Of a stretch of DNA of 64,000 nt, positions 14,375 to 60,190 are shown piece by piece (the first letter of the stretch is position 1; the number at the start of each line of letters is the position of its first letter). The stretch is from Desulfatitalea sp. BRH_c12. GTDB taxonomy: Bacteria; Desulfobacterota; Desulfobacteria; Desulfobacterales; Desulfosarcinaceae. The notes under the pieces were generated by a model, which saw only the letters and a program-made list of their open reading frames with translations, made no database searches and was not told where the DNA came from. The stretch covers positions 310,001 through 374,000 of the forward strand of contig LADR01000008.1 of assembly GCA_000961655.1 (NCBI GenBank). Direction: 5' to 3'. The position numbers and the translations under genes were made by a program.

Positions 14375-15337
14375 TTACTCCTCTTCCTTTTTGAGGGGGC
14401 TGTCAGCGATCTCGTTGGCGATATCGATGGTCACCGTTTCCCGCCGGCTATCGGTCTCGCCGATAAAATACACCGCCACATATTCGCCCACCGACCAGAT
14501 CTTCTCCGATTCGAGTTCTTCCTTGAAGAACGGCATGGCCGTGCCGGTGATGCCGTTCATGATCTGATAGTAAAGTATCCCGCCGCTGATGCCTCTGCCT
14601 TTTAAAAGGGTAAAATTCAAGGGCGGCGGATCCAGATAGGGCTGCGCCGGTCCCATGCCGTCGCCGATAGGGCCATGACATCCGATGCAAAAGCCCTGGT
14701 AAATCCTCTTGCCGCGGTTGAGACGGTAATCCGTGGTCGGATATGGGTTGGGCAGTTCGCGCCAGGGTGCGGGCACGTGATCGTGCAGCCAGCGGACATT
14801 CTCGTCGGGGCCGGCCCGGAAGGCTTCCAGGGCCTTTTCTTTCCAGAAATTCTGGCGGGCCATGCGGTGGTCGGCCAGTTTGAAGCCCAGACTCTGCTTG
14901 TAGGCGATCAGGGCTCTGATTTGATCCATACCCAGGAACTCCCAATTGGGCATGACCGATTCGGGGCGCACGAACCGCGGATTGATAAAATGGGCCACAT
15001 GCCAATCATCCGGATGCAGGCCGCCCTCCTGGGACAGATCGGGGCCCCAGCGTTCGGTGCCCACCAGATGCGGCACATCCAGCACGTAGTCGCCGGACTG
15101 CGAGATCCGCTCAGAACCGGACCCCCAATCGAACGGCCGCACGAATTGGGTGTGGCAGAAAGTGCACCCGTTATTTTGGTAAATCCGGCGCCCCTCTTCT
15201 TCGAGCGGTGTGCGGGCGCGCACCACCGCGGACGGCGCCTCGCTGATCGTGTGCCAGGGCAGGAGCATCGAGATGAACAGAACGGCCGAGAAAATCAACA
15301 GGCATCCGGTTACGATGACCATGGGGACCATCTTCAC
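14375..15337 (-). CDS. ccoO: CcoO-like cytochrome c with a second CcoP-like haem domain
   Basis: 320 residues. The start is a GTG that overlaps the CcoN stop (GTGA), with AAGGAGG upstream. One N-terminal anchor helix is followed by haem site CTFCHT in the context GCTFCHTQFVRPF, and by LVGTERWGPDLSQEGG, both hallmarks of CcoO. A second cytochrome c domain near residues 205-300 carries CIGCHG and a likely methionine ligand in GTAMPFF. Classical CcoO has a single haem, so this protein looks like CcoO joined to a CcoP-type domain. No separate dihaem ccoP is seen. It should relay electrons from ACIII to CcoN. Confidence 0.85.
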   Translation of the reverse strand: MKMVPMVIVTGCLLIFSAVLFISMLLPWHTISEAPSAVVRARTPLEEEGRRIYQNNGCTFCHTQFVRPFDWGSGSERISQSGDYVLDVPHLVGTERWGPDLSQEGGLHPDDWHVAHFINPRFVRPESVMPNWEFLGMDQIRALIAYKQSLGFKLADHRMARQNFWKEKALEAFRAGPDENVRWLHDHVPAPWRELPNPYPTTDYRLNRGKRIYQGFCIGCHGPIGDGMGPAQPYLDPPPLNFTLLKGRGISGGILYYQIMNGITGTAMPFFKEELESEKIWSVGEYVAVYFIGETDSRRETVTIDIANEIADSPLKKEEE

Positions 15338-16704
15338 GGCAGACCCTCCTTGATTTTTCCCGGCCAGTACAAGGTGCGCAAAAGGTTGTACAGCCCGATA
15401 TACGCCGCACCGATGATGAACAACCCGGAAAACAGGCGCAGCACCATGTAAATGTGCATCATGGGCAGCGTGCGGTAGATCGCTTCACCGTTGAGCCAGC
15501 TGTTGCCCTGGATCAGGCCGGCCGTCGAGAGAACCAGGTGGAAAGCCGTCAGGCCGAAGATCAACAGCCAGTATTGTATGTCGGCCAAGCGCTTTTCGTA
15601 CAGCGGACGGCCGATAATGCGCGGTATGATCAGCCAGATGCCTGCCAAGCCGATAAATCCAGCGAAACCCAGAACTCCCAGGTGCGAGTGCGCGATCACC
15701 CAGTTGTTTAAATGCGTCACGCGCTGCACGGACGGCAAGGCTTGCAGCGGGCCGGCGATGCAGACCAGGGCATACCAGACCAGACCGGCGAATACGAATT
15801 TGCCGGCAATATTGGCATGCAAGACGCCCAGCCGCCCGCGCATGGTCAGCCACAGATTGACCAGCACCGTGGCCACCGGCAGCAACATGCTCAGGCTGCC
15901 CGTGATGGCGACCACCTTCAGCCAGGTCGGAATAGGGGTTTGAATGATATGGTGAGCGCCGATATGCGAATAGAGCACCAGAATCGTCCAGAACCCGATC
16001 AGAGACAAACTGTGGCTGTACAGCGGCGCGCGACTGACGATCGGCACGATATAGTAGGCCACGGCCACCGCCAGGGGGGTCATAAACAGCCCGATGATGC
16101 CGTGGCCGTAAAACCAGGCCAGATTGGCGTCGGCCAAACCGGCCAGAGAGCCGGTGCGCGGGTTCCAGACGGCATTGCCGAAGAAGTAGAAGCACCAGGT
16201 GAAGACCAGTGCGGCAAAAAGATACCATACGCTGACGTAGAGAATTTTCTCTTGCCGCCGCAGGGTGGTCATCAGGTAGTTGACGAAGATCAGAGCGAAC
16301 GCCGTCAAAATTCCGATGTCCACCGGCCAGATCCATTCGGCGTATTCGCGCGATTGGGAATACCCCAATCCCAGCAGCACGTTGCCGGAAAGAATGGACA
16401 GATTCCATACCCACAATGCGAGCTTGCCCAGCCGCTCGCTGTACAGGACTGTGCGGGTCATGACCGGGATCAGATAAAACCCGGCCCCCATCAGACTGGT
16501 GCCGACAAATCCGAAGATCACCGTATTGGTGTGCATGGGCCGCAATCGGCCAAAGACCAGAAAGGGAATATTGTCGATCAGTTCGGGTGCGGCCAAATGG
16601 GTGGCATCGATGCCGCCCAGCGTGGTCCCCACCACGAACCATATGGCCGAGCTCAGCAAAAAGGCCTTGGCTGTCCCATTGGGTTCGACTTTCAGCAACT
16701 GCAT
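15334..16704 (-). CDS. ccoN: cbb3-type oxygen reductase catalytic subunit I
   Basis: 456 residues and about 12 helices; AAAGGAG lies five bases before the ATG. The haem-copper centre is visible: H201 in WFYGHGI, Y245 in LVLYSHIG, and H251/H252 in GAHHII. The 44-residue gap from H201 to the tyrosine matches the cross-linked His-Tyr pair of C-family oxidases. This argues for oxygen reduction and against a nitric oxide reductase, which lacks that tyrosine. Further haem-ligand candidates are H58 (RPMHTN) and the His residues in NNWVIAHSHLG. It is flanked by ACIII genes, so quinol to ACIII to oxidase is the likely route. Confidence 0.92.
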   Translation of the reverse strand: MQLLKVEPNGTAKAFLLSSAIWFVVGTTLGGIDATHLAAPELIDNIPFLVFGRLRPMHTNTVIFGFVGTSLMGAGFYLIPVMTRTVLYSERLGKLALWVWNLSILSGNVLLGLGYSQSREYAEWIWPVDIGILTAFALIFVNYLMTTLRRQEKILYVSVWYLFAALVFTWCFYFFGNAVWNPRTGSLAGLADANLAWFYGHGIIGLFMTPLAVAVAYYIVPIVSRAPLYSHSLSLIGFWTILVLYSHIGAHHIIQTPIPTWLKVVAITGSLSMLLPVATVLVNLWLTMRGRLGVLHANIAGKFVFAGLVWYALVCIAGPLQALPSVQRVTHLNNWVIAHSHLGVLGFAGFIGLAGIWLIIPRIIGRPLYEKRLADIQYWLLIFGLTAFHLVLSTAGLIQGNSWLNGEAIYRTLPMMHIYMVLRLFSGLFIIGAAYIGLYNLLRTLYWPGKIKEGLP

Positions 16705-16747
16705 GCACTCTCCTTTGAAAAAAAGATTCGGGTAATCTTTTTTTCAG

Positions 16748-17296
16748 CTAATGATGACACGCCAACCAGCAGTCGGTTTGCGCTCCCAGCTGTTGATGAC
16801 AATCGATGCAGAATCCCATTTTGAACTGTCTGCGGACCAGGCGATCCTGTGCTTCCACCAGCCCGTGGCACTCGCTGCAAGCCAGCTCGGCCCAGCGCAA
16901 ATGCGGCTGATGATTGAACTGGACATAATCAGGCACGTAAAAAACGCGCTTCCACAGGATTGGCATGCCGGTCGTCAGGGTTTGTTTTTCTTTCATGATT
17001 TCCGGGTGGGTCGGAATGACGTAGTCGTGACAGAAGAAACATTTGCTCATTTCAGGCAGGCCGGAACGAGGGCCGTGATCCGGAAAAGGGTGGCAGAAAC
17101 GGCAGGCGATCTGTTTGGTGCCTGCATGCACCCGGTGGCTGAACGGAATGGGCTGCTCCGGGCCGATATCCTGGTGCGGAAAGCCATAGTAGTAAAAAAG
17201 CATGAGCAGTCCTGCCACACCGATGCCTATGTAAGCCCACTTTCCGCGCCGCGGGTGGTAAGAAGGGACCGGCTTTTTCGAATCACTGTTTTTCAT
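16748..17296 (-). CDS. actA: Multihaem cytochrome c, ActA-like subunit
   Basis: 182 residues with one N-terminal anchor helix (YIGIGVAGLLMLFYYYGFP). Four canonical haem c sites are present (CRFCH, CFFCH, CSECH, CIDCH), and a fifth at the extreme C-terminus is CWLACHH, a CX3CH spacing. PIPFSHRVHAGTKQIACRFC is typical of the pentahaem ActA subunit of alternative complex III, which accepts electrons from quinol oxidation. It lies between the ActF-like gene and ccoN, not at the head of the operon where actA is usually found. The odd fifth motif may still bind haem, but this is unproven. Confidence 0.82.
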   Translation of the reverse strand: MKNSDSKKPVPSYHPRRGKWAYIGIGVAGLLMLFYYYGFPHQDIGPEQPIPFSHRVHAGTKQIACRFCHPFPDHGPRSGLPEMSKCFFCHDYVIPTHPEIMKEKQTLTTGMPILWKRVFYVPDYVQFNHQPHLRWAELACSECHGLVEAQDRLVRRQFKMGFCIDCHQQLGAQTDCWLACHH

Positions 17297-17473
17297 GCGT
17301 TCATCTTTGCGGCATTCATAATATTGTTTTCGGGTGAGGGCATACCCTTTTCAAAACGTGCACATGGGGAGGTGAGCATATCAAACCGACAGGATGCCTC
17401 CCTTTACACTTTACACTTCGCCTTCATCAGTTGAGCGAAGTGCATACCAGAAAGGTTTTTATCTGCCCATCGA

Positions 17474-18697
17474 TCAATGCACCCGCTTCAATCCTTGCCA
17501 GAACAACGGATCGGATACGGGCAGCAGCGGAAAACGCGTCAGGAAAAAGACGATGCACAAACCGATCAATCCGAAAAAACCAACCGTGATTAATAGCTCC
17601 AATAATCCCAGGGGTATTTGGGGTCCCTTCCATATCGAAGGGGCGATCAACAAAAACCGTTCCAGCCACATGCCAATCAGGATCAGTAAGCAGAGCGCGA
17701 CCATGAATCCGTGCTTCAATTTGATGCGGCGGCTGAGCAGGACCACAAAGGGCAGGGCAAAGCATACGATCAGAACCGTCCAGGCCAGCGGTTTCCAGGG
17801 CAACGCGCGTACGCGTTGAAGTACAAAGTGGCTCTCTTCGGGCAGATTTCCGAACCACATAATAAAAAACTGGGCGTAGAAAAAGTCGGCCGTGATCAGA
17901 CAAAACCCCAACAGCAGCTTGCCCAGGTTATGCAGATGCAGAGGCTTGATGTAAGGCGATAGTCCCAGTCGGCGTTTTGCAAAAAAGCACAAGATGATCA
18001 GGGCAGCGATGCCGGTGAAAAAACTGCCTGCAAAGTAGTACGCACCGAAAAGGGTGCTGTACCAGTGCGGGTCCAGGGACATGATCAGATCAAAGGCCAC
18101 AACCGTCAGCAGGACACCGAAGAAGATGGCGTAAATATTTGCCCATACCGTTTGGGTCGCACCACGGTACGCCTCTGTAGGCGGCGCGGGCGCGTCTTCT
18201 TTTCTGCCAAGCAGTTGCTGATCGCCGCGTATGCCCAGATAAACCATAACCGATGCCGCCACCGCAAGCAGCAGCAATGCCGCACCTTCGCGGATAAAAA
18301 AGAACGGCACATTCAGCCAGGCGCGTTTTTCGGGCAGGTCCTCGTGGATCCACGGAAACAGATGCTCCTTGCCGATGAAAAGCAGCCAGAAAAGTAGAAA
18401 CGCCAGGGGCAGGAATAACACCGGAGATTCGGCCAGGCGCTTGAGTGACCGGCCCCAGTTGGCCTTGGTGATGATCAGTACGGCTGAGAACAGGACGGCT
18501 CCACAACTCAAGCCGGTCCAGAACACCAGGTTGACCAGGAAAGCCTGCCAGGCGCGCTGGTTCATGGCACCGGCGGTGCCATAAAGAAAAGCGGCGGCCC
18601 CAGCCACAACACAGACTGCCAACACCAGAACGATCACCCATTCGGGTGGCCGGCCATGGGCGTCCTGAAACACGACGGTAGGGTCAACTTCGGACAT
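17474..18697 (-). CDS. actF: NrfD-like membrane subunit ActF of alternative complex III
   Basis: 407 residues from ATG 18697, seven bases after AGAGGAG; the frame is open further upstream, but that stretch overlaps actD. About ten hydrophobic helices are present, beginning PEWVIVLVLAVCVVAGAAAF. The AWQAFLVNLVFWTGLSCGAV segment and the large helical core match NrfD/PsrC-type quinol-binding subunits. The gene overlaps the end of actD by 14 bp. With ActC it would form the membrane core of the quinol:cytochrome c oxidoreductase. ActC and ActF are paralogous; this one is assigned ActF from its position after actD. Confidence 0.85.
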   Translation of the reverse strand: MSEVDPTVVFQDAHGRPPEWVIVLVLAVCVVAGAAAFLYGTAGAMNQRAWQAFLVNLVFWTGLSCGAVLFSAVLIITKANWGRSLKRLAESPVLFLPLAFLLFWLLFIGKEHLFPWIHEDLPEKRAWLNVPFFFIREGAALLLLAVAASVMVYLGIRGDQQLLGRKEDAPAPPTEAYRGATQTVWANIYAIFFGVLLTVVAFDLIMSLDPHWYSTLFGAYYFAGSFFTGIAALIILCFFAKRRLGLSPYIKPLHLHNLGKLLLGFCLITADFFYAQFFIMWFGNLPEESHFVLQRVRALPWKPLAWTVLIVCFALPFVVLLSRRIKLKHGFMVALCLLILIGMWLERFLLIAPSIWKGPQIPLGLLELLITVGFFGLIGLCIVFFLTRFPLLPVSDPLFWQGLKRVH

Positions 18698-19190
18698 CGC
18701 GAATCTCCTCTGCACCGCTGTCGCGTAATATTTGACGGATGGCGTCGCTGCGCGCCGGCGGGCAGGCCAGTAAGATCCCGTAGCGATCCACCGTGAAGCG
18801 TGCGTCATAATGTGCGGGGATCCGCAAGCGGGGCAGGCGCGTGAGAATCAGCAGTCCGGCTACTCCGGAAAGAATCGCGAATAGAATGCAGAACTCGAAG
18901 GCCACAATGACATTGGATACACTGGGAATCGGAGGCTTGCCCCAGACGATGAAGTTCCATTGCGCCGCGGTATAAACCGCCAGGGCCAAACCGAAAAGAA
19001 TGCCGAAAATGCCGCCAAAAAGAACAAAGCGGCGCACCGGGCTGGGTTTCACTTCCAGTGCCTCTTCCACCTCTTCATTGAGCGCGGGAGAGTAAACCGT
19101 TTCAACGTCGATTTTTTCTGTTTTCATTCTGTCGATCGCCTTGAGAACATCATCGACATAAGCGTAGATGGCCAGTAGTCTGTCCGTCAT
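18684..19190 (-). CDS. actD: DUF3341 subunit ActD of alternative complex III
   Basis: 168 residues. The N-terminal domain (LLAIYAYVDDVLKAIDRMKT) precedes two hydrophobic helices (FVLFGGIFGILFGLALAVYT and VIVAFEFCILFAILSGVAGL). A small C-terminal domain begins FTVDRYGILLACPP. This arrangement, with a P-P-I-P loop between the helices (GKPPIPSVSNVIVAFE), is characteristic of ActD, a two-helix subunit of unknown catalytic role in ACIII. It lies between actC and actF, the canonical order. Confidence 0.88.
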   Translation of the reverse strand: MTDRLLAIYAYVDDVLKAIDRMKTEKIDVETVYSPALNEEVEEALEVKPSPVRRFVLFGGIFGILFGLALAVYTAAQWNFIVWGKPPIPSVSNVIVAFEFCILFAILSGVAGLLILTRLPRLRIPAHYDARFTVDRYGILLACPPARSDAIRQILRDSGAEEIRDVRS

Positions 19191-19339
19191 AGAACCTCGC
19201 CCCCGTTAGCCTGTCAGCCCGTTGGCCCATTGACTCGCGTTTGCCCCGTTATCTGGAAGGGCGAACCTTGTGTGCGCCCGCGCGTGCCACGCAAGCGCGT
19301 TTGTCCGTAGGATGCCGGCGTTGCTCACGGACTGAGGGG

Positions 19340-20659
19340 TCAACGCCCCCCACGGTGCGGTGCTGGCAAATCTTCTTTCAATTCGGTCATGGAAACGGTG
19401 GGCAGCAATTTCGTGAACAGCAGGAAAAGAAAAAAGAACATGCTGAAAGAGCCGAGCATGATGCCGATTTCCACGATCGACGGTCCCAGGTACAGACCCC
19501 ATGAATAGGGGTCATATTCATGCGCCGGGGAACTTAAAATGATGATATAGCGCTCAAACCACATACCTAAATTGATCAATACGGATATGATGATCAGAGA
19601 GACCAAGTTGGTGCGCAGCTTTTTGATGTAGAAGAAAAGGGGTGCGACCGCGTTGCAGATGAACATCAGCCAGTAGCCAAAAGCATAGGGTCCCACGGCA
19701 CGCCAGTGAAAAATTTCTCTTTCCGCCTCATTGGCGCTGTACCAGGCAATGAACATTTCGGTCAGATACGAGTAGAGCATGATCAGGCCGGTAAAAACGA
19801 TGGTTTTGGCCACATTTTCAAAAATTTCCATCGTCAAAATGTTTTCGAAACGGTAGAGAATGCGCAGGGGGATTAATAGAATCAGCACCATGGCCAGACC
19901 GGAGTGAATGGCGCCGGCCACGAAGTAGGGCGCGAAGATGGTGCTGTGCCATCCGGGCACGATGCCCAGTGCAAAGTCCCAGGATACGACGCTGTGCACC
20001 GAGATGACCAGAGGCGTCGCCAAAGCTGCGAAAAGAAGGTAGACCCAACCGTAATGGCCCCACTGACGGGAGTTTCCGGTCCATCCCAACGACAGGAAAC
20101 CGTAAATTTTTTTGCGCAGACCCTGGAATTTTTCGCGCAGGATGGCCAGATCGGGAATCAGGCCCGTGTACCAGAAAATCGAACTGACCGTCAGATAGGT
20201 GGAGATGGCGATCACGTCAAACACCAGCGGCGACTGAAAATTGGGCCACAGGTTGCGCTGGTTGGGGTAGGGCAAAATCCAGTAGACGATCCACACCCGT
20301 CCCAGGTGGATCAACGGGAATAGACCGGCCACGGAAACGGCGAACACCGTCATGGCCTCCGCACTGCGCGCCAAGGGTGTGCGCCAGGGGGCTTTGAAAA
20401 GATAGAGAATGGCCGAGATCAAGGTGCCTGAATGCGCGATTCCGACCCAGAATACGAAGTTGATCAGGTAGGTGCCCCACATTACCGGATGGTTGTCGCC
20501 AGTGGCGCCGATGCCGGTGGCGATCTGCCATCCCCACGCAAACACACCCACGAGAATGCCCATAAAGGCCATGGCCAGCATCACATAATAGGCCTTATTG
20601 GGCCGTGAAAACCCGGCCAGAACCGTATCGTTGACCTCATGATAACGCATTTCTTTCAT
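19340..20659 (-). CDS. actC: NrfD-like membrane subunit ActC of alternative complex III
   Basis: 439 residues and about ten helices. Signatures include GTYLINFVFWVGIAHSGTLI near the N-terminus and FIAWYSANEAEREIFHWRAV near 300, both typical of ActC. The latter region helps form the quinol site in this family. It follows actB on the same strand across a 380-bp gap that holds a palindromic repeat. Such a large gap inside a respiratory operon may mean partial termination or a second promoter. Confidence 0.9.
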   Translation of the reverse strand: MKEMRYHEVNDTVLAGFSRPNKAYYVMLAMAFMGILVGVFAWGWQIATGIGATGDNHPVMWGTYLINFVFWVGIAHSGTLISAILYLFKAPWRTPLARSAEAMTVFAVSVAGLFPLIHLGRVWIVYWILPYPNQRNLWPNFQSPLVFDVIAISTYLTVSSIFWYTGLIPDLAILREKFQGLRKKIYGFLSLGWTGNSRQWGHYGWVYLLFAALATPLVISVHSVVSWDFALGIVPGWHSTIFAPYFVAGAIHSGLAMVLILLIPLRILYRFENILTMEIFENVAKTIVFTGLIMLYSYLTEMFIAWYSANEAEREIFHWRAVGPYAFGYWLMFICNAVAPLFFYIKKLRTNLVSLIIISVLINLGMWFERYIIILSSPAHEYDPYSWGLYLGPSIVEIGIMLGSFSMFFFLFLLFTKLLPTVSMTELKEDLPAPHRGGR

Positions 20660-20723
20660 CGTACTTTCCGGGTCAGGGTTTGTCTTTATACAAACTTATT
20701 CAACTTTCGGTTTCCAAACGCCG

Positions 20724-20903
20724 GTGATCCGGGCGGGTGGTCCGCGCCACACGCCATTCGTTCAAGTGAGGCTAAAGGTGTACTCCGGGTCGGGCCGCAA
20801 ACTCGCTGGCGCTCAAACAGTGCGGCCCAAACAACCCTACGCACACCTTAAGCCTCACTAAATCTCATGGCTGACTGTGGCGCGGACCACCCGCCCGGCT
20901 CAC
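20724..20903. repeat. Nested palindromic element between actB and actC
   Basis: Three nested inverted repeats are visible. The outer arms are 28 bp (20724-20751 and 20876-20903, one mismatch; GGCGGGTGGTCCGCGCCACA against its complement). The middle arms are 17 bp (20765-20781 and 20843-20859; AGTGAGGCTAAAGGTGT). The inner arms are 8 bp (GGGCCGCA at 20792, TGCGGCCC at 20821). The inner loop reads AACTCGCTGGCGCTCAAACA. It has no coding capacity. The rest of the 380-bp gap (20660-21039) shows nothing else I can name. Confidence 0.88.
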
Positions 20904-21039
20904 CTCACTTCGTGCCAATCCTGAAAGTTGAGAAACTTACTTAAGAGATAGCATTTCCTTCTGTTTGATTTGTCATGGCTTTCTCCGTTGTTGCATCAAT
21001 AGACGTGCTGTCTCGCGGTTGTTCTAACAAGTCAACGGG

Positions 21040-23991
21040 CTACAGCGTTTGCGTCAGGCGCTTCAGGTAAATGACGGCCGGTTTGGTATTCAGATGGTGC
21101 AGTACCTGATATGCCCGGGCATCTTGCATCAGTTTGGCCACGCGGCTTTGCGGATCCAGCAGGTTGCCGAAGATCAGCGCATCGGTCGGACACGTCTGGG
21201 CGCAGGCTGTTGTGAATTCCCCGTCGCGCAGCGGCCGGTCTTCGTTGCGGGCCGTCACCTTGGCCGCCACGATGCGCTGGATGCAAAAGGAGCATTTTTC
21301 CATAATCCCCTTTTGGCGCACCGTGACATCCGGGTTGAGTTGCATTTCCAGCGGTTTTGGCCGGGTCCAGGTGAACCAGTTGAAACGGCGCACTTTATAA
21401 GGGTCGTTTTGCGAACAGAAGCGCGTGCCGAAACAGCGGTTGTACACTTGGTTGTTGAGACCTTCCGGGCTGTGGTGCGGGGCAAAAACCGGGCAGACCG
21501 CCTCGCACGGAGCACTGTCGCAATGCTGGCACAACATGACCAGCCAGCCTGCCCGATGGGTGTCCCGGTCGAAGTAGCGTTGGGCCCTGATCCACGACAT
21601 TTCGCGCATTTTGAGCATCTGTTCGCGGCCGACGAAGGCCACGTTGTTCTCCGCATAACAGGCCACCACACAGGCCCCGCAGCCAATGCAGCGGTCCAGA
21701 TCGACGATCATCGCCCAGCGATATTCCGCGTGCTGGTGCGGGCCGTAGAAGTCGATCTCCTTGTGATAACCGTCCGGCAGGGGCGGCGTGATGTGCGGCT
21801 TGTGACCGGCGGCGACTTTCTCTTTGTGGTGTTCGAAATCTTCATGCGCCAGGAAATCCCGGCCATGATCGGTGAAGCTGCCGCTGGTGGCGGCGATGCC
21901 GAAACGGTCCGGCAGCCGTTGGATCGTGACCGTGAACGTCGCGCCGGCCAGTGTGCCATGCGGATCGATGCCGGAGGGGAGCAGGGTGAATGCATTGGCC
22001 GGCAGGCCGTCGGCAAAACGACCGAACCGGACATGTCCCTGGCCGATCGGCACGGCCAGTTGGCCTGGCGGAACCGAATACATTGGCAAGACCGGCACAT
22101 CGATGGCCCCGTCGGGCGATACGATCCGTACCATGTCGCTTTGCGACAACCCCAGCCGGTCGGCATCCTGCGGGTGCATTTCGACCCAGCCGCCCCAGGT
22201 GATCTGGGTGATCGGATCGGGTAACTCCTGCAGCCAGGGGCGATTGGCCATGCGTCCGTCGTAAAATTGGATGGTCGGATACATGATCGCCGCGAAAGTC
22301 CCGGCGCCCGGCGGCTGTGGCGGGGCGGCAAAAATTGTGTCGCCTGGCGCTTCGGCACTCAGACGCGCCGCCGTCCGGCCCTTTTCGTCAGGCCGGCGGA
22401 CGCCTTGCCGCAAGCTTTGAATCCAGAAGCGCCTGAAGGAGTTTGGGGCCTCACTGCGTTCCGCATGCTTGCGCCAAGCTGAACGCAACCGCTGCGCATA
22501 CGTGGGCATCGGATCCGTGTCGCGTTCGAAGAAGGTTTCGATCAGCATGTCCCCCAGAGGCCGGGTATCGAACACCGCCCCCATGGTGGGTTGCATCAGG
22601 CTCATGATACCTGGTTTGGGATGGTAGTCGCCCCAGGTTTCCAGAAAAGTATGGGCTGGCAGGTGCAGATGTGCATGCACCGAGGTTTCGTCCGGAAAAC
22701 TGGAGAAACTGACTACCATCGGGACTTTCCCGAGGCTTTCGGACACCTGCCAGGCCATTGGCAGGGTGAACGCCGGGTTGACATCGCACAACAGCAGCAG
22801 ATCGATCTCCTTGTCCCGCAAACGGTCGCTGAACACCTGCATGTCCGCCATCGAAGCGGCCGCGCCCAGCGCATGCGGCTGCTGGAAATCGATCAGGGTG
22901 AGACTCTCTTGGGTGACGGCGCACAGCAGGTTGGCGGCGACCGCCGTGGCGTATGCGTTGGGCATCAAACGGCCGTTGCCGCCCGCCAGCGCGAGAGGAC
23001 GGGCGGCCTGGGCAAAGCGGCGCGCAATGGCGCGCAAAGTTTCTTCAGACACACCGCTGCCCTCGGCCGCGCTGCGCGCCGTATGATCGCCGATGGCCTG
23101 CTGGACCTGTTCGCGCTGGGACCTCGACCAATGCGCGGGCTGTTCTTCCAGAAGAATCTTAAGCATGCCCACGGCCACCAGATACTCCTTTCCGGGGGCC
23201 GTGAAAACGGCGTGATCGGCATTGGCAGCCGTCAGCGACTGGCGCGGACCGACGTACACGAAAAAGTTCTTGCGCCCAGCTCCGGGCTGGTGAAAGGCGG
23301 CAAAGCGGCGCGCGTACTCCACATTGGAAAGCCAGGTTTCCAGAAAATCGGCGTTGAACGAGATCAGGAAATCGGCCTGATCGATGGTGTAGGTGGGCAG
23401 CGCGGCGTGGCCGAAAACAGTCTGATTGGCGGCTTGCAGGGACTCATACGACAAAGGCTCATACATCAGATGGGCGCGGGGACCGGCGCCAAATTGCGCC
23501 AATCCATCGTCGATAACCTCTTTGAGTGTGCCCGCGAGCAGCGGTGTCAACAGCGCGACGCGCTCCTGACGGCCCTGCCTGCGCAGCGCGCGGACTTTTT
23601 CGTACAGCAAGGTCTCGGCCTGCGCACGATCGATCAGCTGAAGGGCGCCCTCACGGGATCGCAGGCGCGGACCGCGGATGCGATCAGGATTATACAGGCC
23701 AGTGAGCGAAGCCTGTCCGCGGGGACACAGTTTGCCCGTGTTGATCGGATGCAATGGGTTTCCTTCCGCCTTGATGATGCGGCCATCGCGATTGGCGGCC
23801 AGCATGCCGCATCCGGCCGGACATTCTCGGCATACCGTGGCGAAAACGGTCGCTATGCCCGGAAGAATGCCCTCGGGGGGGCGCACATACGGAATCAAAT
23901 CCGGCAGCTCAGGCCCGCAGCCCGTAGCGAAGGCCACGCTGCCCCAACCCATCCATTTGAGGAACTGTCGTCGTCGGATCCCCTTGGCCAT
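21040..23991 (-). CDS. actB: ActB: molybdopterin-like / iron-sulfur fusion subunit of alternative complex III
   Basis: 983 residues from ATG 23991; upstream in-frame codons look non-coding. A twin-arginine signal, RRRQFLKWMGWG, is followed by a possible lipobox (FATGC). The N-terminal two thirds is a molybdopterin-oxidoreductase-like domain starting with a CRECPAGC cluster motif and LCPRGQASL. The C-terminal third is an NrfC/PsrB-like ferredoxin with CIGCGACVVAC, CQHCDSAPCEAVCP, CSFCIQ and CAQTCP, enough for several 4Fe-4S clusters. In known ACIII this protein lacks molybdenum and relays electrons, facing the periplasm. It is the first gene of the leftward block. Confidence 0.92.
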   Translation of the reverse strand: MAKGIRRRQFLKWMGWGSVAFATGCGPELPDLIPYVRPPEGILPGIATVFATVCRECPAGCGMLAANRDGRIIKAEGNPLHPINTGKLCPRGQASLTGLYNPDRIRGPRLRSREGALQLIDRAQAETLLYEKVRALRRQGRQERVALLTPLLAGTLKEVIDDGLAQFGAGPRAHLMYEPLSYESLQAANQTVFGHAALPTYTIDQADFLISFNADFLETWLSNVEYARRFAAFHQPGAGRKNFFVYVGPRQSLTAANADHAVFTAPGKEYLVAVGMLKILLEEQPAHWSRSQREQVQQAIGDHTARSAAEGSGVSEETLRAIARRFAQAARPLALAGGNGRLMPNAYATAVAANLLCAVTQESLTLIDFQQPHALGAAASMADMQVFSDRLRDKEIDLLLLCDVNPAFTLPMAWQVSESLGKVPMVVSFSSFPDETSVHAHLHLPAHTFLETWGDYHPKPGIMSLMQPTMGAVFDTRPLGDMLIETFFERDTDPMPTYAQRLRSAWRKHAERSEAPNSFRRFWIQSLRQGVRRPDEKGRTAARLSAEAPGDTIFAAPPQPPGAGTFAAIMYPTIQFYDGRMANRPWLQELPDPITQITWGGWVEMHPQDADRLGLSQSDMVRIVSPDGAIDVPVLPMYSVPPGQLAVPIGQGHVRFGRFADGLPANAFTLLPSGIDPHGTLAGATFTVTIQRLPDRFGIAATSGSFTDHGRDFLAHEDFEHHKEKVAAGHKPHITPPLPDGYHKEIDFYGPHQHAEYRWAMIVDLDRCIGCGACVVACYAENNVAFVGREQMLKMREMSWIRAQRYFDRDTHRAGWLVMLCQHCDSAPCEAVCPVFAPHHSPEGLNNQVYNRCFGTRFCSQNDPYKVRRFNWFTWTRPKPLEMQLNPDVTVRQKGIMEKCSFCIQRIVAAKVTARNEDRPLRDGEFTTACAQTCPTDALIFGNLLDPQSRVAKLMQDARAYQVLHHLNTKPAVIYLKRLTQTL

Positions 23992-24162
23992 AATAATCCT
24001 TCCGGGTTTCCATCGGTGTTTGTGGGTCGGCACTAAGCCTCTATGCCGGTCTGATCGGATTTCATTCGTAGGGTCGCGCTGCGACTGCGAGTGCGTGGAG
24101 ATGTAGACGCAGACTAGCATTGCGCAGGATCGAACAAAATCAGTTTAAGCATGTATTTGGCA

Positions 24163-25734: not shown

Positions 25735-28700
25735 ATGATGGTGCAATCCCTCCCAAAAGAGCGTCGTGCCCTTTGCGGGATATGTCCGGCGGGTTGCTGG
25801 GTCGTTGTGTCATATGATCTGCAAGGACGTATCGCGACGGTTCAGCCCGACCCCGACTCACCGTTGGGCCTCGTCTGCAAGTTAGGCGAACACTCCGCCG
25901 AGATCGTCCATAGCGCCAACCGCCTGCAAACGCCGTTGCGCCGCAAAGGTCCCAAGGGGAGCTTCGATTTTGAGCCGATCAGTTGGGAGACGGCTTTTGA
26001 AGAGATCGTCGATCGGATGCAGGCCATCAAAGCCGAGTCCGGACCCGAGGCAACGGCCATTTACACCGGCCGCGGCAGCTTCGAGTTGGCCATGTGCGAT
26101 GTGTTCCAGCCGGCCGGTGTGGCGGTTTCCTCCGCATCGAGCGTGCTCTTTCCTTTTGGCTCGCCGAACACCATGGGCGTGGGTGCGCTGTGTTACGTCT
26201 CTTATGCCATGATCGCCCCGCATGTCACCATGGGCGGCATGCTGATCACGATGTTTTCCGATCTGGAGAATGCCGAATTGATTGTGGTGTGGGGTGCCAA
26301 TCCGGCCACGGATTCCCCGCCAAACGATTATTACCGCATTTTGAAAGCCGTCGAGCGCGGCGCGCAGGTGGTGGTTATCGATCCGAGGCGTACGGCCATG
26401 GCCAAAACCGCCGGCGCCGAGTGGATTCCGGTTCGGCCGGGCACCGACGGGGCCCTGGCCCTGGGGCTGTGCCAGGTGCTGATCGAGGAAGAACTCTACG
26501 ACGAGGCCTTTGCGCGCGATTGGACGCATGGTTTCGATGCGTTTGCCGAGCATGTGCAGCATTACCGCCCCGAGATGGTGGCCGCGATCTGCGGTGTGCC
26601 GCAAGAGACCATTCGTTCCCTGGCGCGGCGCATCGCCGCAGCGGGCGGCGCTGCGCCGGTGATGTACACCGGATTGGAGTACAACGACAGCGGCGTGCAG
26701 GCCATTCGCGCCACCATGGTCCTGTGGGGACTGGCCGGGCAGTTGGATGTGCCCGGCGGACGCTGCTTTGCCATGCCCGGCAGCGATTTTCCGGTCAACC
26801 GTGAGGGGCTGATCGCCAATCCCAACATGAAAAAGGCCCTGGGCCGTGATACTTTTCCGGTCTACAGCGCCTATCGCGGCGAATCGCATGCCAATGCCCT
26901 GCCGGAGGCAGTACTGAATGGCCGGCCGTATCCGATCCGGTCCCTGATCGTTCTGGGCGCCTCGATCAGCACGGCCTGGCCGCAGCCCGAGGTGTGGCGG
27001 CGCACCCTCGATGCCCTCGATTTCCTGGTATGCATCGATGTCAACCTGACGGCCGACAGCGCTTACGCCGATATCGTGCTGCCAGCGGCCACCTGGTACG
27101 AAATTCAATCTTACATGCGGTATGGGCCTGTGTTCCGCATCCGTGAAAAGGTGATCGAGCCATTGGGTCAGTCGCGCAACGCCTTCTTTATCCTGACAGA
27201 ACTGGCCGAGCGCCTCGGATACGGCCATCTTTATCCGCGCGATGAGGAGGCCCTGCTGCGTCATGCATTGAAAGGATCACCGTTTACATTGGAACAGGTG
27301 CGCGCGGCTGGCGGTACGGTGCGTATCGACACGCAACTGATGCAATATAAAAAGTGGGAAAAAGGTCTGTTGCGCCCGGATGGCCAGCCCGGTTTCGACA
27401 CTCCCACCGGCAAGTTCGAGATTGCTTCGACCATTCTTGAAGAGCATGGCTATGCGCCCCTGCCGGTCTATACCGAACCGCAGGAAGGGCCTTTGGCCCA
27501 GCCTATACTGGCCCGGGAGTTCCCGCTGGTGTTCAACTCGGGCGCGCGCGTCACGACCGATTTTCGCAGCCAGTTTCACCACATCCCAGGGTTGTCGCGC
27601 CAACGACCCGAACCGACCGTCACGCTCAATGCCGGCGACGCCGCGGCCCGCGGGATTGAAAATGGCGATGCAGTGCGGGTGCGCACGCCCCGCGGGCAGG
27701 TGCGCATGCGTGCGCTGGTTACCGAGGACATCGTGCCCGGCGCCATCGATGCCAACATGGGCGGCGGCGGTCCGTTGGGGCCGGCCGCTTGGCAGGCCTG
27801 CAACATCAATGACTTGACCGAACGGCGTCATGATCCGATTTCGGGGTTTCCCATTTACAAATCGCTATTGTGCGAAGTTGAAAAGGCGGATCAGGCCGGG
27901 GCTGCCCTGACGATCGATTCGGGTGAAAGCGTGGCAGCTAACGCACCATCGGCACACGCAGTCAGTGCGTCCGCTGTCAAGGAACGCATTTACCTGGATC
28001 ACAACGCCACAACCAATCCGGACCCGGAAGTGTCGCGATTCATGATGGCCCATTTTCAAAACGGATACGGCAACCCTTCTTCGATCTACCGCGAAGGGCG
28101 CAATGCCAAAACCGCCATCGAGGATGCCCGGCGCTCGGTCGCCAAACTGCTCGGTTGCACGGCGCGGCGCATCAGCTTCACCGGCGGCGGCAGTGAAGCC
28201 AACAACTGGGTGATCAAAGGGGTGGCGCTGGCTCAGTGGGCCCACAAGCCGCATTTGATCACCTCGGCCGTCGAGCACCCTTCGGTACTGAAAGTGATGG
28301 CCTGGCTTGGACAGGCCGGCTTCGGGCTGACCATTCTGCCGGTCGACCCGTACGGTCAGGTCAATCCCCGTGACCTCGATGCGGCCATCACCGAGCGGAC
28401 CGTTCTGATCAGCATTATGACCGCCAACAATGAAACCGGCACGCTGCAGCCGATTGCCGAAATGGCGCGCATCGCCCGGGCGCACGGCATATTGTTTCAC
28501 ACCGACGCGGTGCAGGCCGGCGGCAAGATTCCCCTGGATGTGGCTGCCCTGGATGTCGATTTTCTGACCTTATCGGCGCACAAGCTTCACGGGCCCAAAG
28601 GGGTGGGCGCGCTTTACATGCGCAAGGGCGTGCAGTTGACGCCCCTGATCCACGGGGGCGGACAGGAATACGGCGTGCGCGCCGGCACGGAGAACACCTT

Positions 28701-29142
28701 GGGGATCATCGGGTTCGGTCAGGCCGCGGTCCTGGCTGAAAACCGTCTCGATACCGATGGTGACCGGATTGCGGGCCTGCGTGACCGCCTGCAGGAACAC
28801 CTGTTGGCCATTGTGCCGGAAGCCAGGATCAACGGTCATCCACGCGAACGTCTGCCCAATACCTTAAATCTGTCCCTGCCTGCCATTCGCGGCGAAAGCA
28901 TGGTGTTGGCCCTGGATCTGCAAGGGGTCAGCATCTCCTCCGGCTCAGCCTGTCGCTCAGGATCGCCCCTTCCGTCCCATGCGCTGCTGGCAATGGGGCT
29001 TTCGACCGAGCAGGCCCATTGTGCGCTGCGATTCTCATTGGGCAGCGCCAACACCGAAGCCCAGATCGATCGGGTCGCCGAACTGATCGACCAAATCGTT
29101 CACCAATCCATGCACAGCGTGCGCTTTGTGGCCTGCCGGTGA
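25735..29142 (+). CDS. Molybdopterin oxidoreductase fused to cysteine desulfurase; probable metallopterin-dependent ergothioneine synthase
   Basis: 1,135 residues from the first of three successive start codons (ATG 25735, ATG 25738, GTG 25741); ribosome-site spacing favours the last two. The N-terminal half is a DMSO-reductase-family domain. A 4Fe-4S motif is formed by C14, C17, C21 and C48 (CGICPAGC, then LVCKLG). C153 in GALCYVSY sits where the molybdenum-ligating Cys/Ser/Sec is expected. The substrate-channel and cofactor-binding C-terminal domain (DAAARGIENGDAVRVRTPRG) runs to about residue 710. After an Ala/Ser-rich linker, residues 745-1125 form a class V PLP cysteine desulfurase: IYLDHNATTNPD, PLP lysine K950 (LSAHKLHG) and sulfur-carrying C1073 (SSGSACRSG). 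An EgtD-type methyltransferase follows 41 bp later. From memory, the ergothioneine synthase of Caldithrix abyssi has this architecture and sulfurates trimethylhistidine. Confidence 0.85.
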   Translation: MMVQSLPKERRALCGICPAGCWVVVSYDLQGRIATVQPDPDSPLGLVCKLGEHSAEIVHSANRLQTPLRRKGPKGSFDFEPISWETAFEEIVDRMQAIKAESGPEATAIYTGRGSFELAMCDVFQPAGVAVSSASSVLFPFGSPNTMGVGALCYVSYAMIAPHVTMGGMLITMFSDLENAELIVVWGANPATDSPPNDYYRILKAVERGAQVVVIDPRRTAMAKTAGAEWIPVRPGTDGALALGLCQVLIEEELYDEAFARDWTHGFDAFAEHVQHYRPEMVAAICGVPQETIRSLARRIAAAGGAAPVMYTGLEYNDSGVQAIRATMVLWGLAGQLDVPGGRCFAMPGSDFPVNREGLIANPNMKKALGRDTFPVYSAYRGESHANALPEAVLNGRPYPIRSLIVLGASISTAWPQPEVWRRTLDALDFLVCIDVNLTADSAYADIVLPAATWYEIQSYMRYGPVFRIREKVIEPLGQSRNAFFILTELAERLGYGHLYPRDEEALLRHALKGSPFTLEQVRAAGGTVRIDTQLMQYKKWEKGLLRPDGQPGFDTPTGKFEIASTILEEHGYAPLPVYTEPQEGPLAQPILAREFPLVFNSGARVTTDFRSQFHHIPGLSRQRPEPTVTLNAGDAAARGIENGDAVRVRTPRGQVRMRALVTEDIVPGAIDANMGGGGPLGPAAWQACNINDLTERRHDPISGFPIYKSLLCEVEKADQAGAALTIDSGESVAANAPSAHAVSASAVKERIYLDHNATTNPDPEVSRFMMAHFQNGYGNPSSIYREGRNAKTAIEDARRSVAKLLGCTARRISFTGGGSEANNWVIKGVALAQWAHKPHLITSAVEHPSVLKVMAWLGQAGFGLTILPVDPYGQVNPRDLDAAITERTVLISIMTANNETGTLQPIAEMARIARAHGILFHTDAVQAGGKIPLDVAALDVDFLTLSAHKLHGPKGVGALYMRKGVQLTPLIHGGGQEYGVRAGTENTLGIIGFGQAAVLAENRLDTDGDRIAGLRDRLQEHLLAIVPEARINGHPRERLPNTLNLSLPAIRGESMVLALDLQGVSISSGSACRSGSPLPSHALLAMGLSTEQAHCALRFSLGSANTEAQIDRVAELIDQIVHQSMHSVRFVACR

Positions 29143-29183
29143 TCGCCGGACAGGGTGCAGCAGTGCCGCGGAAAGAGAGTCCA

Positions 29184-30257
29184 ATGAACGGCCGATCGGT
29201 AAATCGCGTGACCGTCAGCAACTACTTGAACGATGACTTCAGTGCCCGCATTGCCGACGATGTGCGGCGCGGGCTGTCCAGAACACCCAAAGCCATTCCT
29301 TCCAAATACTTTTACGATAGCCGGGGATCACGCCTGTTCGATCGGATTTGCGAGCTGCCGGAGTACTACCCGACGCGCACGGAAATCGGCATCCTGCGCG
29401 ACCGCGCCCGGTCGATTATGTCCTTTTTCGAAAAGCGTCCCGGTCTTCTGGTGGAGATCGGCAGCGGGTCGGATGTGAAAATCCGCCAGTTGCTCGAGCG
29501 GATCGATCCGGCCTGGCTGCGTCACATCCGCTATGTCCCGATGGACATCAGCGCCGATTGCGTGATCGGCGGGGCGCGGCGCCTGCTGGCGGATTTTCAG
29601 GGACTGTCCGTCGAGGGCATCATTGCCGATTTCACGTGTCACCTGGAACAGATTCCCCCCGGCCGCAAAATGATTGTCTTTCTGGGGGGCACCTTCGGCA
29701 ATTTTACGCCGGCCGAGGGCAACGATCTTCTGATGCGCCTGGCCGCAACCATGGGGGCCGAGGATCGTCTCTTGATTGGCTTGGATATGGTCAAGGACCG
29801 GCCCATCATCGAAGCGGCCTATAACGACCGGGCCGGCGTAACCGCGGCATTCAACCTGAACATTCTGAATCACATCAACCAACGGTTGGATGCGAATTTC
29901 GATATGAACCTATTCGAGCACCATGCCTTTTTTAATCCGAATGAAGAAAGAATCGAAATGCATCTGCGGGCCAGAGACACATTTACCGTGCAGATCGCCG
30001 GGTTGGCGATGGCATCTTTTTTCCGCCGCAACGAAACCATTCGGACCGAAATAAGTCAGAAATTCAGCCGGCAAAGCGCACATGCGCGTTTTCGGAAGGC
30101 CGGCCTGGAGGCGGTCGCCTGGCACACCGACGCGCAGGACTGGTTTTCCCTGGTGGAACTCGCCAAAAAGCGCTTTGCCCATGTCGGTTCTGCGGCGCAT
30201 GCCGCCTGGACGCAGAAAACTTCCGTTTACCCTGAAAAAAGAGAGGCGCCTGCATGA
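29184..30257 (+). CDS. egtD: EgtD-type L-histidine N-alpha-methyltransferase
   Basis: 357 residues from ATG 29184; the frame is open further upstream without a ribosome site. Family signatures are clear: KAIPSKYFYDSRGSRLFDRI, CELPEYYPTRTE, the SAM loop LVEIGSGSDVKIRQLL, YVPMDISADCV and IVFLGGTFGNFTPAEG. EgtD transfers three methyl groups from SAM to the histidine amino group, giving hercynine (trimethylhistidine), the precursor of ergothioneine. No EgtB-type iron sulfoxide synthase, EgtC or EgtE is nearby. Instead the upstream fusion enzyme supplies both sulfur mobilisation and a redox domain, consistent with an anaerobic route. The C-terminus is extended by some 30 residues relative to the usual 320. 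The stop overlaps the next start (ATGA). Confidence 0.92.
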   Translation: MNGRSVNRVTVSNYLNDDFSARIADDVRRGLSRTPKAIPSKYFYDSRGSRLFDRICELPEYYPTRTEIGILRDRARSIMSFFEKRPGLLVEIGSGSDVKIRQLLERIDPAWLRHIRYVPMDISADCVIGGARRLLADFQGLSVEGIIADFTCHLEQIPPGRKMIVFLGGTFGNFTPAEGNDLLMRLAATMGAEDRLLIGLDMVKDRPIIEAAYNDRAGVTAAFNLNILNHINQRLDANFDMNLFEHHAFFNPNEERIEMHLRARDTFTVQIAGLAMASFFRRNETIRTEISQKFSRQSAHARFRKAGLEAVAWHTDAQDWFSLVELAKKRFAHVGSAAHAAWTQKTSVYPEKREAPA

Positions 30258-39343: not shown

Positions 39344-41155
39344 ATGACTGATTCCCGTTATATCATCGGCATCGACCTGGGGACGACCAACAGTGTCGTG
39401 GCCTATGTCGAAGCTGATATTGATCGCATTGAAGAGGCGCCCATCCGTTTGTTCGACATTCCGCAAGTGGTCGACGCCGGCGTTTTGGAAGCCCGTCCGA
39501 TTGTGCCTTCTTTCGTGCTCGTGCCGGCCGCGCAGGAGACACCGCAAGGTGCCATGGCGCTGCCCTGGGATCCATCTGCCGGCATGGCCGTAGGCGAATA
39601 TGCCCGCCGGCGCGGCGAAGAGATTCCGCAACGGCTGATCGCTTCGGCCAAATCGTGGTTGTGCAATACCCTGGTCGACCGCAAAGCGCCGATTCTCCCC
39701 TGGGAGTCGCACCAACCGGGCAATGCCCCGCAAATTGCCAAACTGTCGCCCGTGGAAGCCTCGGCCGCCATACTCGGCCATATCCGCGATGCCTGGAACC
39801 ATACCATGGCGCGAACGGATGCCGGCCTGGACGAACGCCTGCGAATTGAAAACCAATTGATTTATCTGACCGTGCCGGCTTCGTTCGATGCCGTGGCGCG
39901 CGAGTTGACCATGGAAGCGGCCGAACTGGCCGGATTGTCGCAGGTCACGCTACTCGAAGAGCCCCAGGCGGCTTTTTACGCCTGGATCGGGGGCAGTGAG
40001 CGCTGGCGCGATGCGGTTGCGCCGGGTGACCTGATTCTGGTGTGCGATGTGGGTGGCGGCACCAGCGATTTCAGTTTGATCCAAGTGGCCGAAGAGGCCG
40101 GCGACCTGGTGCTGGACCGGATTGCCGTGGGCAACCACCTGCTCGTCGGCGGCAACAACATGGATCTGGCCCTGGCCTACGCGCTGTCCGGACGGCTGGC
40201 CGAGCGCGGCACGCGCCTGGACACCTGGCAGATGAGCGGCCTTTGGCACAGCTGCCGAAGGGCCAAGGAGCAGATCCTTTCCGATACCACGATCGACAGC
40301 CTGCCGGTCACCATTCTGGGGCGCGGCAGCAAACTGATCGGCGGTACGATCACCATCGATTTGACCCGCGAACTGATCGAAAGTGTGCTGCGCGACGGGT
40401 TTCTGCCGGCGTGCACCCGCGACGACAAACCCAAAGCCCCGCAACGTGCCGGTATCCGGGAATTCGGGCTGGCTTACGAGGCCGATCCGGCCATTACGCG
40501 TCACCTGGCTGCATTTCTGGACCGCCGCAATCCAGAAGACAAACCGGTTGTGCCCACCGCCGTGTTGTTCAACGGCGGTGTCATGAAATCGGCCTTGCTG
40601 CGTGAGCGGGTTGTGTCTGTGTTGAACAGCTGGAGCGGCGGCAATCCCATCCGCGAGATCGAAGGCAGCGATTTCGACCTGTCGGTCGCGCGGGGGGCCG
40701 CATATTACGGGCTGGCGCGACAGGGCAAGGGCGTGCGTATCCGCGGCGGACTGGGGCGTGCTTACTATATCGGCATCGCCGCCGCCATGCCGGCCGTGCC
40801 GGGGCTTCCATCGCCGACCAAGGCCTTGTGCGTGGCTTCTTTCGGCATGGAAGAGGGCACTACCGCCGATATCACCGAACGCGAGTTCATGCTGCTGGTC
40901 GGCGAGCCGGTGGTGTTTGATTTCCTCGGCTCTACGACGCGCGTCGACGATGCCATAGGTACCGTGGTCGAAGATTGGCAGGGCGAAATCGAAGCCATCA
41001 CCACCTTGGAAACCACGCTGGAAGGCGATCCGGGCCAAGTCATCCCGGTCTCTCTCGAGTTGCACGTTACCGAAGTCGGCACACTTGAAGTATACTGCGT
41101 CTCGAGGATCGACGCGCGCAAGTGGAAACTCGAGTGGAACGTCAGAGAGCAGTAG
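39344..41155 (+). CDS. Hsp70-family protein, first of a pair
   Basis: 603 residues. The actin-like ATPase is clear: phosphate-1 loop GIDLGTTNSVVAY, phosphate-2 loop CDVGGGTSDFSL near 228, and the adenosine region VLFNGGVMKSALLRERV near 410. The rest includes a short beta-rich substrate-binding-like domain (VSLELHVTEVGTLEVYCVS). It lacks the helical lid and EEVD-type tail of DnaK, so it is a divergent Hsp70 like those of the HscC/YegD type. It precedes a larger paralogue by 131 bp. No J-domain or GrpE gene is in the window. Confidence 0.88.
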   Translation: MTDSRYIIGIDLGTTNSVVAYVEADIDRIEEAPIRLFDIPQVVDAGVLEARPIVPSFVLVPAAQETPQGAMALPWDPSAGMAVGEYARRRGEEIPQRLIASAKSWLCNTLVDRKAPILPWESHQPGNAPQIAKLSPVEASAAILGHIRDAWNHTMARTDAGLDERLRIENQLIYLTVPASFDAVARELTMEAAELAGLSQVTLLEEPQAAFYAWIGGSERWRDAVAPGDLILVCDVGGGTSDFSLIQVAEEAGDLVLDRIAVGNHLLVGGNNMDLALAYALSGRLAERGTRLDTWQMSGLWHSCRRAKEQILSDTTIDSLPVTILGRGSKLIGGTITIDLTRELIESVLRDGFLPACTRDDKPKAPQRAGIREFGLAYEADPAITRHLAAFLDRRNPEDKPVVPTAVLFNGGVMKSALLRERVVSVLNSWSGGNPIREIEGSDFDLSVARGAAYYGLARQGKGVRIRGGLGRAYYIGIAAAMPAVPGLPSPTKALCVASFGMEEGTTADITEREFMLLVGEPVVFDFLGSTTRVDDAIGTVVEDWQGEIEAITTLETTLEGDPGQVIPVSLELHVTEVGTLEVYCVSRIDARKWKLEWNVREQ

Positions 41156-41286
41156 GCTGCTTGCCCATTGGCCGACGCGCCGTCTACGTCGTCCTCAGCA
41201 CCCGAAAAGGACACACGGGTGCACGCGCCAAGGCAAAAAATTCGGGTCAGTGCCCCACGGGCTAACGGGCCACGGGATAAACAGAC

Positions 41287-52496: not shown

Positions 52497-52853
52497 AATA
52501 ATAAATCTCCTTTATTTGATTATTTGATCTTTTCCCCACACATCCCTCCCACACGTCTATGGCGCGTTACTGAAACGTTAGGCATGAAACCCAAGACGGA
52601 CAATGTAGATTAGACTGTATAAGGAGCTGCATAAAGTATTATGCGAGACCGTCTAACGGGCTCTCTATGGGCTGAAAATGCAGTCCAGACATTACTGCGC
52701 CCTTGGAAATAGGCACAACGCAGAGTGTCCTATGGTTGGCATGGGTTTGACCGGAGATAAGAATACCGATTAGAACCCATGTCAAGGGATTTATTGACCC
52801 TTATCATAAAGAGTCTTTTCTGTGTTCAATCCATGCACCCTGGAGTATTACCC
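52497..52853. other. Divergent intergenic region, PRC-barrel gene to ligD
   Basis: No gene was recognised in 357 bases. The divergent promoters of ligD and the PRC-barrel gene should lie here. No repeat-family copy was found. Confidence 0.4.
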
Positions 52854-58039: not shown

Positions 58040-60190
58040 TCAACGAAGACATTGACTCAGCAGGTCGCGCAGGGCGGCCGGGGAGGTTACGCGGTACTTG
58101 GCGGCGGTATCGCCGGGGCCGACTTTGATGCTGATGTCCCTCTCGCCGGCTACCCGGAACATGGATTCATCCGTTTCGTCATCGCCGGCGCACAAGACGC
58201 TATCATAGCGGTTGAGGGTCTTCAGATGCTGCAGGATAACCCCATTGTTGATCAGGATGGAACTGATCTCGACAATTTTGCTTCCGTGATGGATCTCCAC
58301 TGGCAGATTGGACAGCAACTCTTGCAGTTCAATAACCAGTTGGTGCGCTTTCCATGCACCGAACTCGACATCGGCACCGCGATAGTGCCATACGACCGAG
58401 GCGTTCTTTTCTTCAACGAACGATCCGGGCGTCATGTCCGCGTAATGGAACAGCATGTCCGCTACCCGGTTCTTCCACTCCAGATCGACATGCGCTTCGA
58501 ACTGGATCCACTCGCGTGCGTTGCGGTGCTTGTAGTAAAAACCGTGTTCGGCGATCAGATGGAAGCCGTGATTTCCGAACCAGCGCGACATGTCGTCGCG
58601 GGTCCTTCCGCTGATCAGATACACATCCAACCCTGATTTTTCCAGAAGAATGAAAAGCGCCTCGAGGGCTGGATCGGGCCCGGCCTCCTCTGGATTGTTG
58701 CGCAATTCAGTCAATGTGCCATCGTAATCCAGAAAGAGACCCCAGCGGCCCTCGGCCATCGAGCGCTTCAACGCGTCTGCCGAGAGCGAAAGGACTTTGT
58801 TGGGCGAACGCATGTCTTCTGTGACCGAACTCAGATCCTGGATAAAAGAGTGCGCCCACAAACGTGCATTGTAGCGCAATATGCGACGGCGCATGGGTGC
58901 CATGCGCCGGTTGCGCTCGGCCGGCGGCATGTTCAGGGCGTCGTTGAGGGCGTTGGCCATTTGCTCGATGTTGTAAGGATTGACCACTGTGGCTTGCGGC
59001 AGTTCCTGGGCCGCACCGGCGAATTCGCTCAGGATCAACACGCCGTTATGGTCTTTCTGGCACACCAGGTATTCCTTGGCCACCAGGTTCATGCCATCGA
59101 TGAGGGGCGTGACCATGGCCACATCGGCCAAGCTATAGAGCGCGCACAACTGGCTGAAGGTCACCGACTGGTGAATGAAGTGAATGGGGGCGTTTTCGAT
59201 GGTGGCCAACTCGCCATTGATTTTGCTGACCTTGCGCTCGATATCGCGACGCAGCTTCTGGTATGCATCCACACTTTCCCGGGAGGGTACGCTGATGAAA
59301 ATGAACACCACATCGCGCCGTCCCGACTCGATCAGAAATCGCTCGATGGCATCCAATCGGCGCGGTACGCCTTTGGTGTAATCCAGCCGTTCCACGCCCA
59401 ACACGACTTTTTTGCCCTGGTAGATGCGGCGGTACTCACGCAGGTGATCGTGATAGGCCTGCGACTGCATCTCGGTTTCGAATTTGTCGGCCGGAATGGA
59501 TATGGGATACACGCCCACCGAGACCAGGTGGGTTTCGGTCGCGATGGTGTTGATTTCCGAGGCCAGGCCGAGGATGCGTTGGACGGTGCTGCGAAAGTGG
59601 CGCAGGTAATCGGACGTGTGAAAACCGATCAGATCGGCGCCGAGCAGCCCTTCGAGCAGTTCTATGCGGTTGGGATGGCAGCGGAAAATTTCATAGGAGG
59701 GAAAAGGGGTGTGCAAGAAAAACCCGATCTTCAGATCCGGCCTTTGCGCACGAAGCAAAGCCGGCAAGAGCATCAGGTGATAATCATGGACCCAGACCAT
59801 ATCGCCGTGTTGGGCCCGCTCCACGACGCTCTGCGCGAAAGCGCGGTTGACACTCTTATAGGCATCGAACCAGCGGCGATCATATCGTGCATAGCTGGGC
59901 AGATAGTGCATCAACGGCCACAGACTGGAATTGGAAAAGCCTGTATAAAAATCTTCTACATCCTGTTCGGACAGGAATAGGGGCGTATAGCCAAAGCGCT
60001 CCTGCAGTTCGCGGGTGATCTCCGTGCGGCGTTCGGGATCTTCCACCGGTGCGCCCGCCCAGCCGACCCATTGGAAATCATAGTCCGCGCGTAACCCATC
60101 CATTGCCGAGACCAGGCCACCCGCCGAGGCGGTGATGGTGTCCGTCACAACGACCGGCAGACGATTGGATATATTGATCAAGGATTGCAT
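58040..60190 (-). CDS. otsAB: Fused trehalose-6-phosphate synthase/phosphatase
   Basis: 716 residues; AGGAG lies eight bases before the ATG. Residues 1-470 are a GT20 synthase: [53 protein letters not shown], and the [11 protein letters not shown] donor site. Residues 490-716 are an HAD-type phosphatase ([13 protein letters not shown]; the Lys/Asp region near [10 protein letters not shown]). It makes trehalose from UDP- or ADP-glucose and glucose-6-phosphate. Fusions of this kind are common in environmental bacteria; E. coli has separate otsA and otsB. Trehalose protects against drying and salt. Confidence 0.94.

Follow-up and report, generated by a model that had tools for sequence, protein, structure and literature searches.

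Metallopterin-dependent ergothioneine synthase (MES) was described as an enzyme class in 2022 by Beliaeva and Seebeck, from Caldithrix abyssi (PMC9516567). The protein joins a bis-MGD module (residues 1-718), a relative of acetylene hydratase, to a cysteine desulfurase. Changes at C153, K952, C1074 or C1135 of the C. abyssi enzyme (CaMES) abolished ergothioneine formation, whereas a change at C1097 just halved it (PMC9516567). Ergothioneine was made in E. coli by four diverse MES, the enzyme was reported in 55 genomes, and in-chain sulfur transfer was concluded from CaMES heterodimers to be obligatory (PMC9516567). The window analyzed here, a 64,000-nucleotide stretch of the Desulfatitalea sp. 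BRH_c12 genome, carries a gene pair that the original prediction had read as an oxygen-independent ergothioneine pathway, pointing to an enzyme of C. abyssi and noting that the system might already have been described. That enzyme does exist (PMC9516567), and its two-domain plan matches that of the window protein.

The MES and EgtD genes in the window

The MES gene (25735..29142, + strand) encodes 1135 amino acids and was identified by its Pfam and NCBIfam domains, its match to the published CaMES positions and an alignment with 47 fused relatives. Its N-terminal bis-MGD/4Fe-4S module spans residues 1-718 (25735..27888, +) and its C-terminal NifS/IscS-type cysteine desulfurase spans residues 747-1135 (27973..29139, +), with the Pfam domains Molybdopterin at 63-493, Molydop_binding at 605-710 and Aminotran_5 at 752-1114 (E = 2e-77). 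Each of the positions C14-x2-C17-x3-C21, C48, C153, K950, C1073, C1096 and C1134 was inspected, and the catalytic signatures claimed for both halves of the fusion (CX2CX3C, C153, K950 and C1073) were all verified in the sequence. C14, C17, C21 and C48 are the cluster cysteines for 4Fe-4S, C153 is the predicted metal ligand, and the desulfurase half has the PLP lysine K950, the persulfide cysteine C1073 and the relay cysteine C1134 in the C-terminal tail. These eight residues are invariant in an alignment of 48 MES. C1134, the second-last residue of the protein and the counterpart of the second relay cysteine in the published enzyme, was not mentioned in the original prediction.

The closest solved relative of the N half is acetylene hydratase (2e7z; phmmer, E = 6e-69), which is also the best Foldseek match of the predicted structure (E = 1e-51, TMt 0.83). 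In this model (pLDDT 84; a monomer without cofactors), the desulfurase half matches the Nfs1/IscS fold with an rmsd of about 2 Å. Low pLDDT is found in the linker (734-748) and in the C1134-bearing tail (1127-1135), which agrees with a mobile sulfur carrier without proving it. When each half was compared with L110, an MES of 1136 amino acids whose source MAG carries the label C. abyssi, the identity was about 74% for the N-terminal and 58% for the C-terminal half, and all nine published positions are in register. It is well supported that the window protein is an MES, a new member of the published enzyme class.

The start codon of EgtD, histidine N-alpha-trimethyltransferase (29184..30257, +, 357 amino acids), is an ATG at 29184, 41 bp past the MES stop codon. 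The protein scores 348.9 bits against the curated TIGR03438 model (cut-off 290.9) and aligns end to end with the solved M. smegmatis EgtD (E = 1e-74), so the clear EgtD expected behind the fusion gene is indeed present. The motifs GNxTP, AYxDxAGVTAAFN and TExSxKF are retained; in the alignment to 4uy5, these substrate-binding motifs read GNFTP, AYNDRAGVTAAFN and TEISQKF. EgtD is single-copy in the window's genome.

It had also been claimed that neither EgtB nor EanB is present. For EgtB, a model search of the window's genome agrees with this: the best score was 50 bits against a cut-off of 360, and every hit lies far under the cut-off. The evidence for EanB is weaker: none of the rhodanese hits inspected in the window's genome resembles it, and its absence is likely rather than fully proved. 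One 467-residue candidate looks like a rhodanese combined with a metallo-beta-lactamase fold, and no EanB chain was matched by a 384-residue triple-rhodanese protein.

The gene of an M23 peptidase (Csd3/MepM-like, PF01551; 30254..31480, +) follows, starting with an ATG at 30254 and sharing 4 bp with the EgtD stop. The peptidase is probably co-transcribed with MES and EgtD, as the predicted operon implies, but it is probably a bystander outside the pathway because it is retained beside MES in only one sister genome (L044). The M23 and hemerythrin genes recur in one sister genome only, and none of the M23 peptidase, PRC-barrel and hemerythrin genes recurs across the 79 other named MES loci (tblastn), so we do not regard them as pathway parts. 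In the neighbourhood clustering, a further upstream ORF of the window was likewise matched in the sister genome only.

Proposed pathway and the pairing of MES with EgtD

By analogy with CaMES, we consider it very probable (about 95%) that MES and EgtD of the window make ergothioneine without O2. The domain content, the residues and the gene pairing are direct observations, and the MES reaction would be carried over from the published C. abyssi enzyme. EgtD would convert histidine to trimethylhistidine (TMH), while the desulfurase half of MES, through K950-PLP, would move sulfur from L-cysteine to C1073. The persulfide would then be handed to C1134, whose flexible C-terminal tail may deliver the sulfur to a Mo/W-bis-MGD centre held by C153, and the sulfido group of the metal would sulfurate C2 of the TMH imidazole to give ergothioneine. 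Both the carrier role of the tail and the attack by Mo=S are inferred here, just as in the published work (PMC9516567).

Within the same phylum, EgtD lies in the 1.5-kb flanks of 22/22 fused homologues and of 0/33 unfused sisters, which argues that the MES-EgtD pairing is not due to chance. When 84,980 species genomes were scanned, 364 related stretches came up, and the best 80 of the 364, which we examined, come from many bacterial and archaeal phyla. MES is thus present over many phyla, anammox and purple sulfur bacteria among them, which extends the published distribution far past 55 genomes (PMC9516567). Across phyla, EgtD is found in 47 of 81 MES neighbourhoods, and the next commonest family in 9. 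Among the MES genomes without a nearby EgtD, 17 of 21 carry EgtD elsewhere (14 over the cut-off), compared with 0 of 14 control genomes over the cut-off.

These data bear on a different reading of the fusion, in which it serves cofactor or Fe-S maturation, as a self-sulfurating reductase of the formate dehydrogenase type, and the pairing with EgtD is incidental. The N half does match the formate dehydrogenase and thiosulfate reductase models and the C half the NifS model, all below the cut-offs, and desulfurases are known to sulfurate Mo cofactors (PMC9516567). However, partner subunits were not found adjoining the MES gene, two further NifS/IscS-type desulfurases are encoded in the window's genome for general needs, published homologues produce ergothioneine (PMC9516567), and EgtD flanks only the fused homologues in the phylum and is the dominant neighbour across phyla. 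We therefore regard a maturation role as very improbable.

At five MES loci, four of the anammox type and one from Phycisphaerae (L105, L107, L113, L116 and L171), a binding-protein/permease fusion is encoded together with an ABC ATPase. For the one copy tested, that of L107, the ergothioneine transporter EgtUC ranks first among solved structures (4e-39), narrowly ahead of the choline-type ProX (5e-36).

Desulfurase-less MES and an unfused sister family

Seven MES orthologues stop cleanly after the metallopterin module, sharing about 69-75% identity with the N half of the window protein. Three are from Methanophagales-class archaea (L175, L210 and L211) and two from Nitrospirota (L143 and L201), while Rhabdochromatium marinum (L118) and a deltaproteobacterial MAG (L100) have one each. 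All seven retain C14, C17, C21, C48 and C153. Three further candidates (L137, L139 and L115) have broken or cut frames and were left out of the count. EgtD is immediately downstream in five of the seven, namely those of Methanophagales and Nitrospirota, and the other two genomes have an EgtD-family hit elsewhere, that of L100 just under the cut-off. In a quick tree (LG+G4, SH-aLRT only), at least four separate desulfurase losses are all forced by well-supported branches. The loss is not explained by archaea devoid of desulfurases, since the genomes G769 and G979 hold another class-V aminotransferase of >400 bits.

Either the short MES obtain sulfur from another donor or the function of the enzyme has changed. 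Their conservation in three archaeal and two Nitrospirota genomes, the latter two proteins being 74% identical to each other, argues against decay. The existence of these relatives indicates that a fused sulfur supply is not universal, and their position beside EgtD in Methanophagales and Nitrospirota argues against an obligatory in-chain supply. The desulfurase-less forms are thus at odds with the published conclusion (PMC9516567) and call the same-chain rule into question.

An unfused sister family, U1, comprises 26 proteins of Desulfobacterota (L010-L012, L063-L068 and L083-L099) and has no copy in the window's genome. U1 shares about 50% identity with MES over the whole N half, retains C153, the cluster cysteines and C713, and has a conserved C-terminal tail, DP[ST]LGC[VG]G. 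Unlike MES, it has no desulfurase, and its partner is an OvoA/OvsM-type methyltransferase instead of EgtD. The unfused sisters are not a split MES paired with EgtD, as 0/33 have either EgtD or a desulfurase in their flanks. In 25 of the 26 U1 loci, a protein with a Trm112-type N-terminus and a SAM methyltransferase domain adjoins U1, directly upstream on the same strand in 24 and downstream in one. TIGR04345, the C-terminal 4-mercaptohistidine N1-methyltransferase of OvoA, is the best NCBIfam match in 9/9 proteins tested, nearly full length in eight of the nine but below the cut-off (90-122 versus 170 bits). For the one protein searched against solved structures, the best matches are OvsM (2e-23), OvoA and OvoM, which are N-methyltransferases of 5-thiohistidine or 5-selenohistidine.

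These matches predict an O2-independent, metallopterin-dependent ovothiol pathway, and the presence of both MES and U1 genes in one genome (G554) suggests that their products differ. We tentatively propose, at somewhat less than even odds and from sequence comparison, that MES is one branch of a group of metallopterin imidazole thiolases, in which U1 and its OvoM/OvsM-type methyltransferase may make ovothiol, or the corresponding selenium compound, by an O2-free route via 5-thiohistidine, and several MES lineages may have dropped the desulfurase in favor of another sulfur donor. We know of no other O2-independent ovothiol route, so that this one, if U1 does make 5-thiohistidine, would be the first. 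No report of a metallopterin-dependent ovothiol pathway was found in a literature search that missed most subscription journals. A third unfused group (L069-L075) is 43-48% identical, mostly has a CGICP N-terminal motif, lacks the Cys tail and has neither EgtD nor an OvoM-like gene nearby.

That the window MES itself yields a different 2-thioimidazole, for instance by acting on something else than trimethylhistidine, is very improbable: related Mo enzymes have been suggested to sulfurate other heterocycles (PMC9516567) and U1 has another type of methyltransferase as its partner, but the partner in the window is a bona fide EgtD, over the cut-off and with its substrate-binding motifs, and the window protein is MES-like at the sites separating MES from the sister family.

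Genomic surroundings and comparison with known systems

Directly upstream of MES, on the opposite strand, lies a cluster (14375-24120, −) that encodes alternative complex III (an ActB-like Mo-bis-MGD/FeS protein, NrfD and ActD), a cbb3/COX1-type oxidase and c-type cytochromes. These genes make up a module for oxygen reduction within a lineage of sulfate reducers. The nearest MES to that of the window is L009/L101, from a member of the same genus, Desulfobacteraceae bacterium SURF_4, and alternative complex III genes are upstream in the sister genome too, as read from protein starts and the clustering. Genes downstream of MES and EgtD include those for a hemerythrin-like protein and for an Mrp antiporter. 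We would guess that ergothioneine has an oxygen-related role in the window's organism, and the placement of MES beside an oxidase bears on the role of ergothioneine in anaerobes. Elsewhere, the window encodes a DUF2760 protein followed by a pair of HSP70-like proteins, of which the second carries DUF3731 (39344-44070, +), a complete DNA ligase D with phosphoesterase, ligase and primase-polymerase (52779-55391, +), and a trehalose-6-phosphate synthase/phosphatase fusion (58040-60190, −).

The routes through EgtB (an iron sulfoxide synthase) and EanB (a rhodanese) share with the window the first step by EgtD and ergothioneine as end product, whereas their sulfur-transfer enzymes are unrelated to MES. 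Acetylene hydratase (2e7z) has the closest solved fold to the N half, with a Cys metal ligand and a 4Fe-4S cluster, but it catalyzes another reaction, is 25% identical and lacks a desulfurase. With CaMES, the window protein shares the two-module plan, a near-equal length (1135 versus 1136 amino acids in the C. abyssi-labelled protein), the EgtD partner and all the catalytic, cluster and relay residues, K952, C1074 and C1135 corresponding to K950, C1073 and C1134. It differs from CaMES in belonging to a relative of sulfate reducers and in lying beside an oxygen-reductase gene cluster, and would add an O2-independent ergothioneine route to a sulfate-reducer lineage, next to alternative complex III and a cytochrome oxidase.
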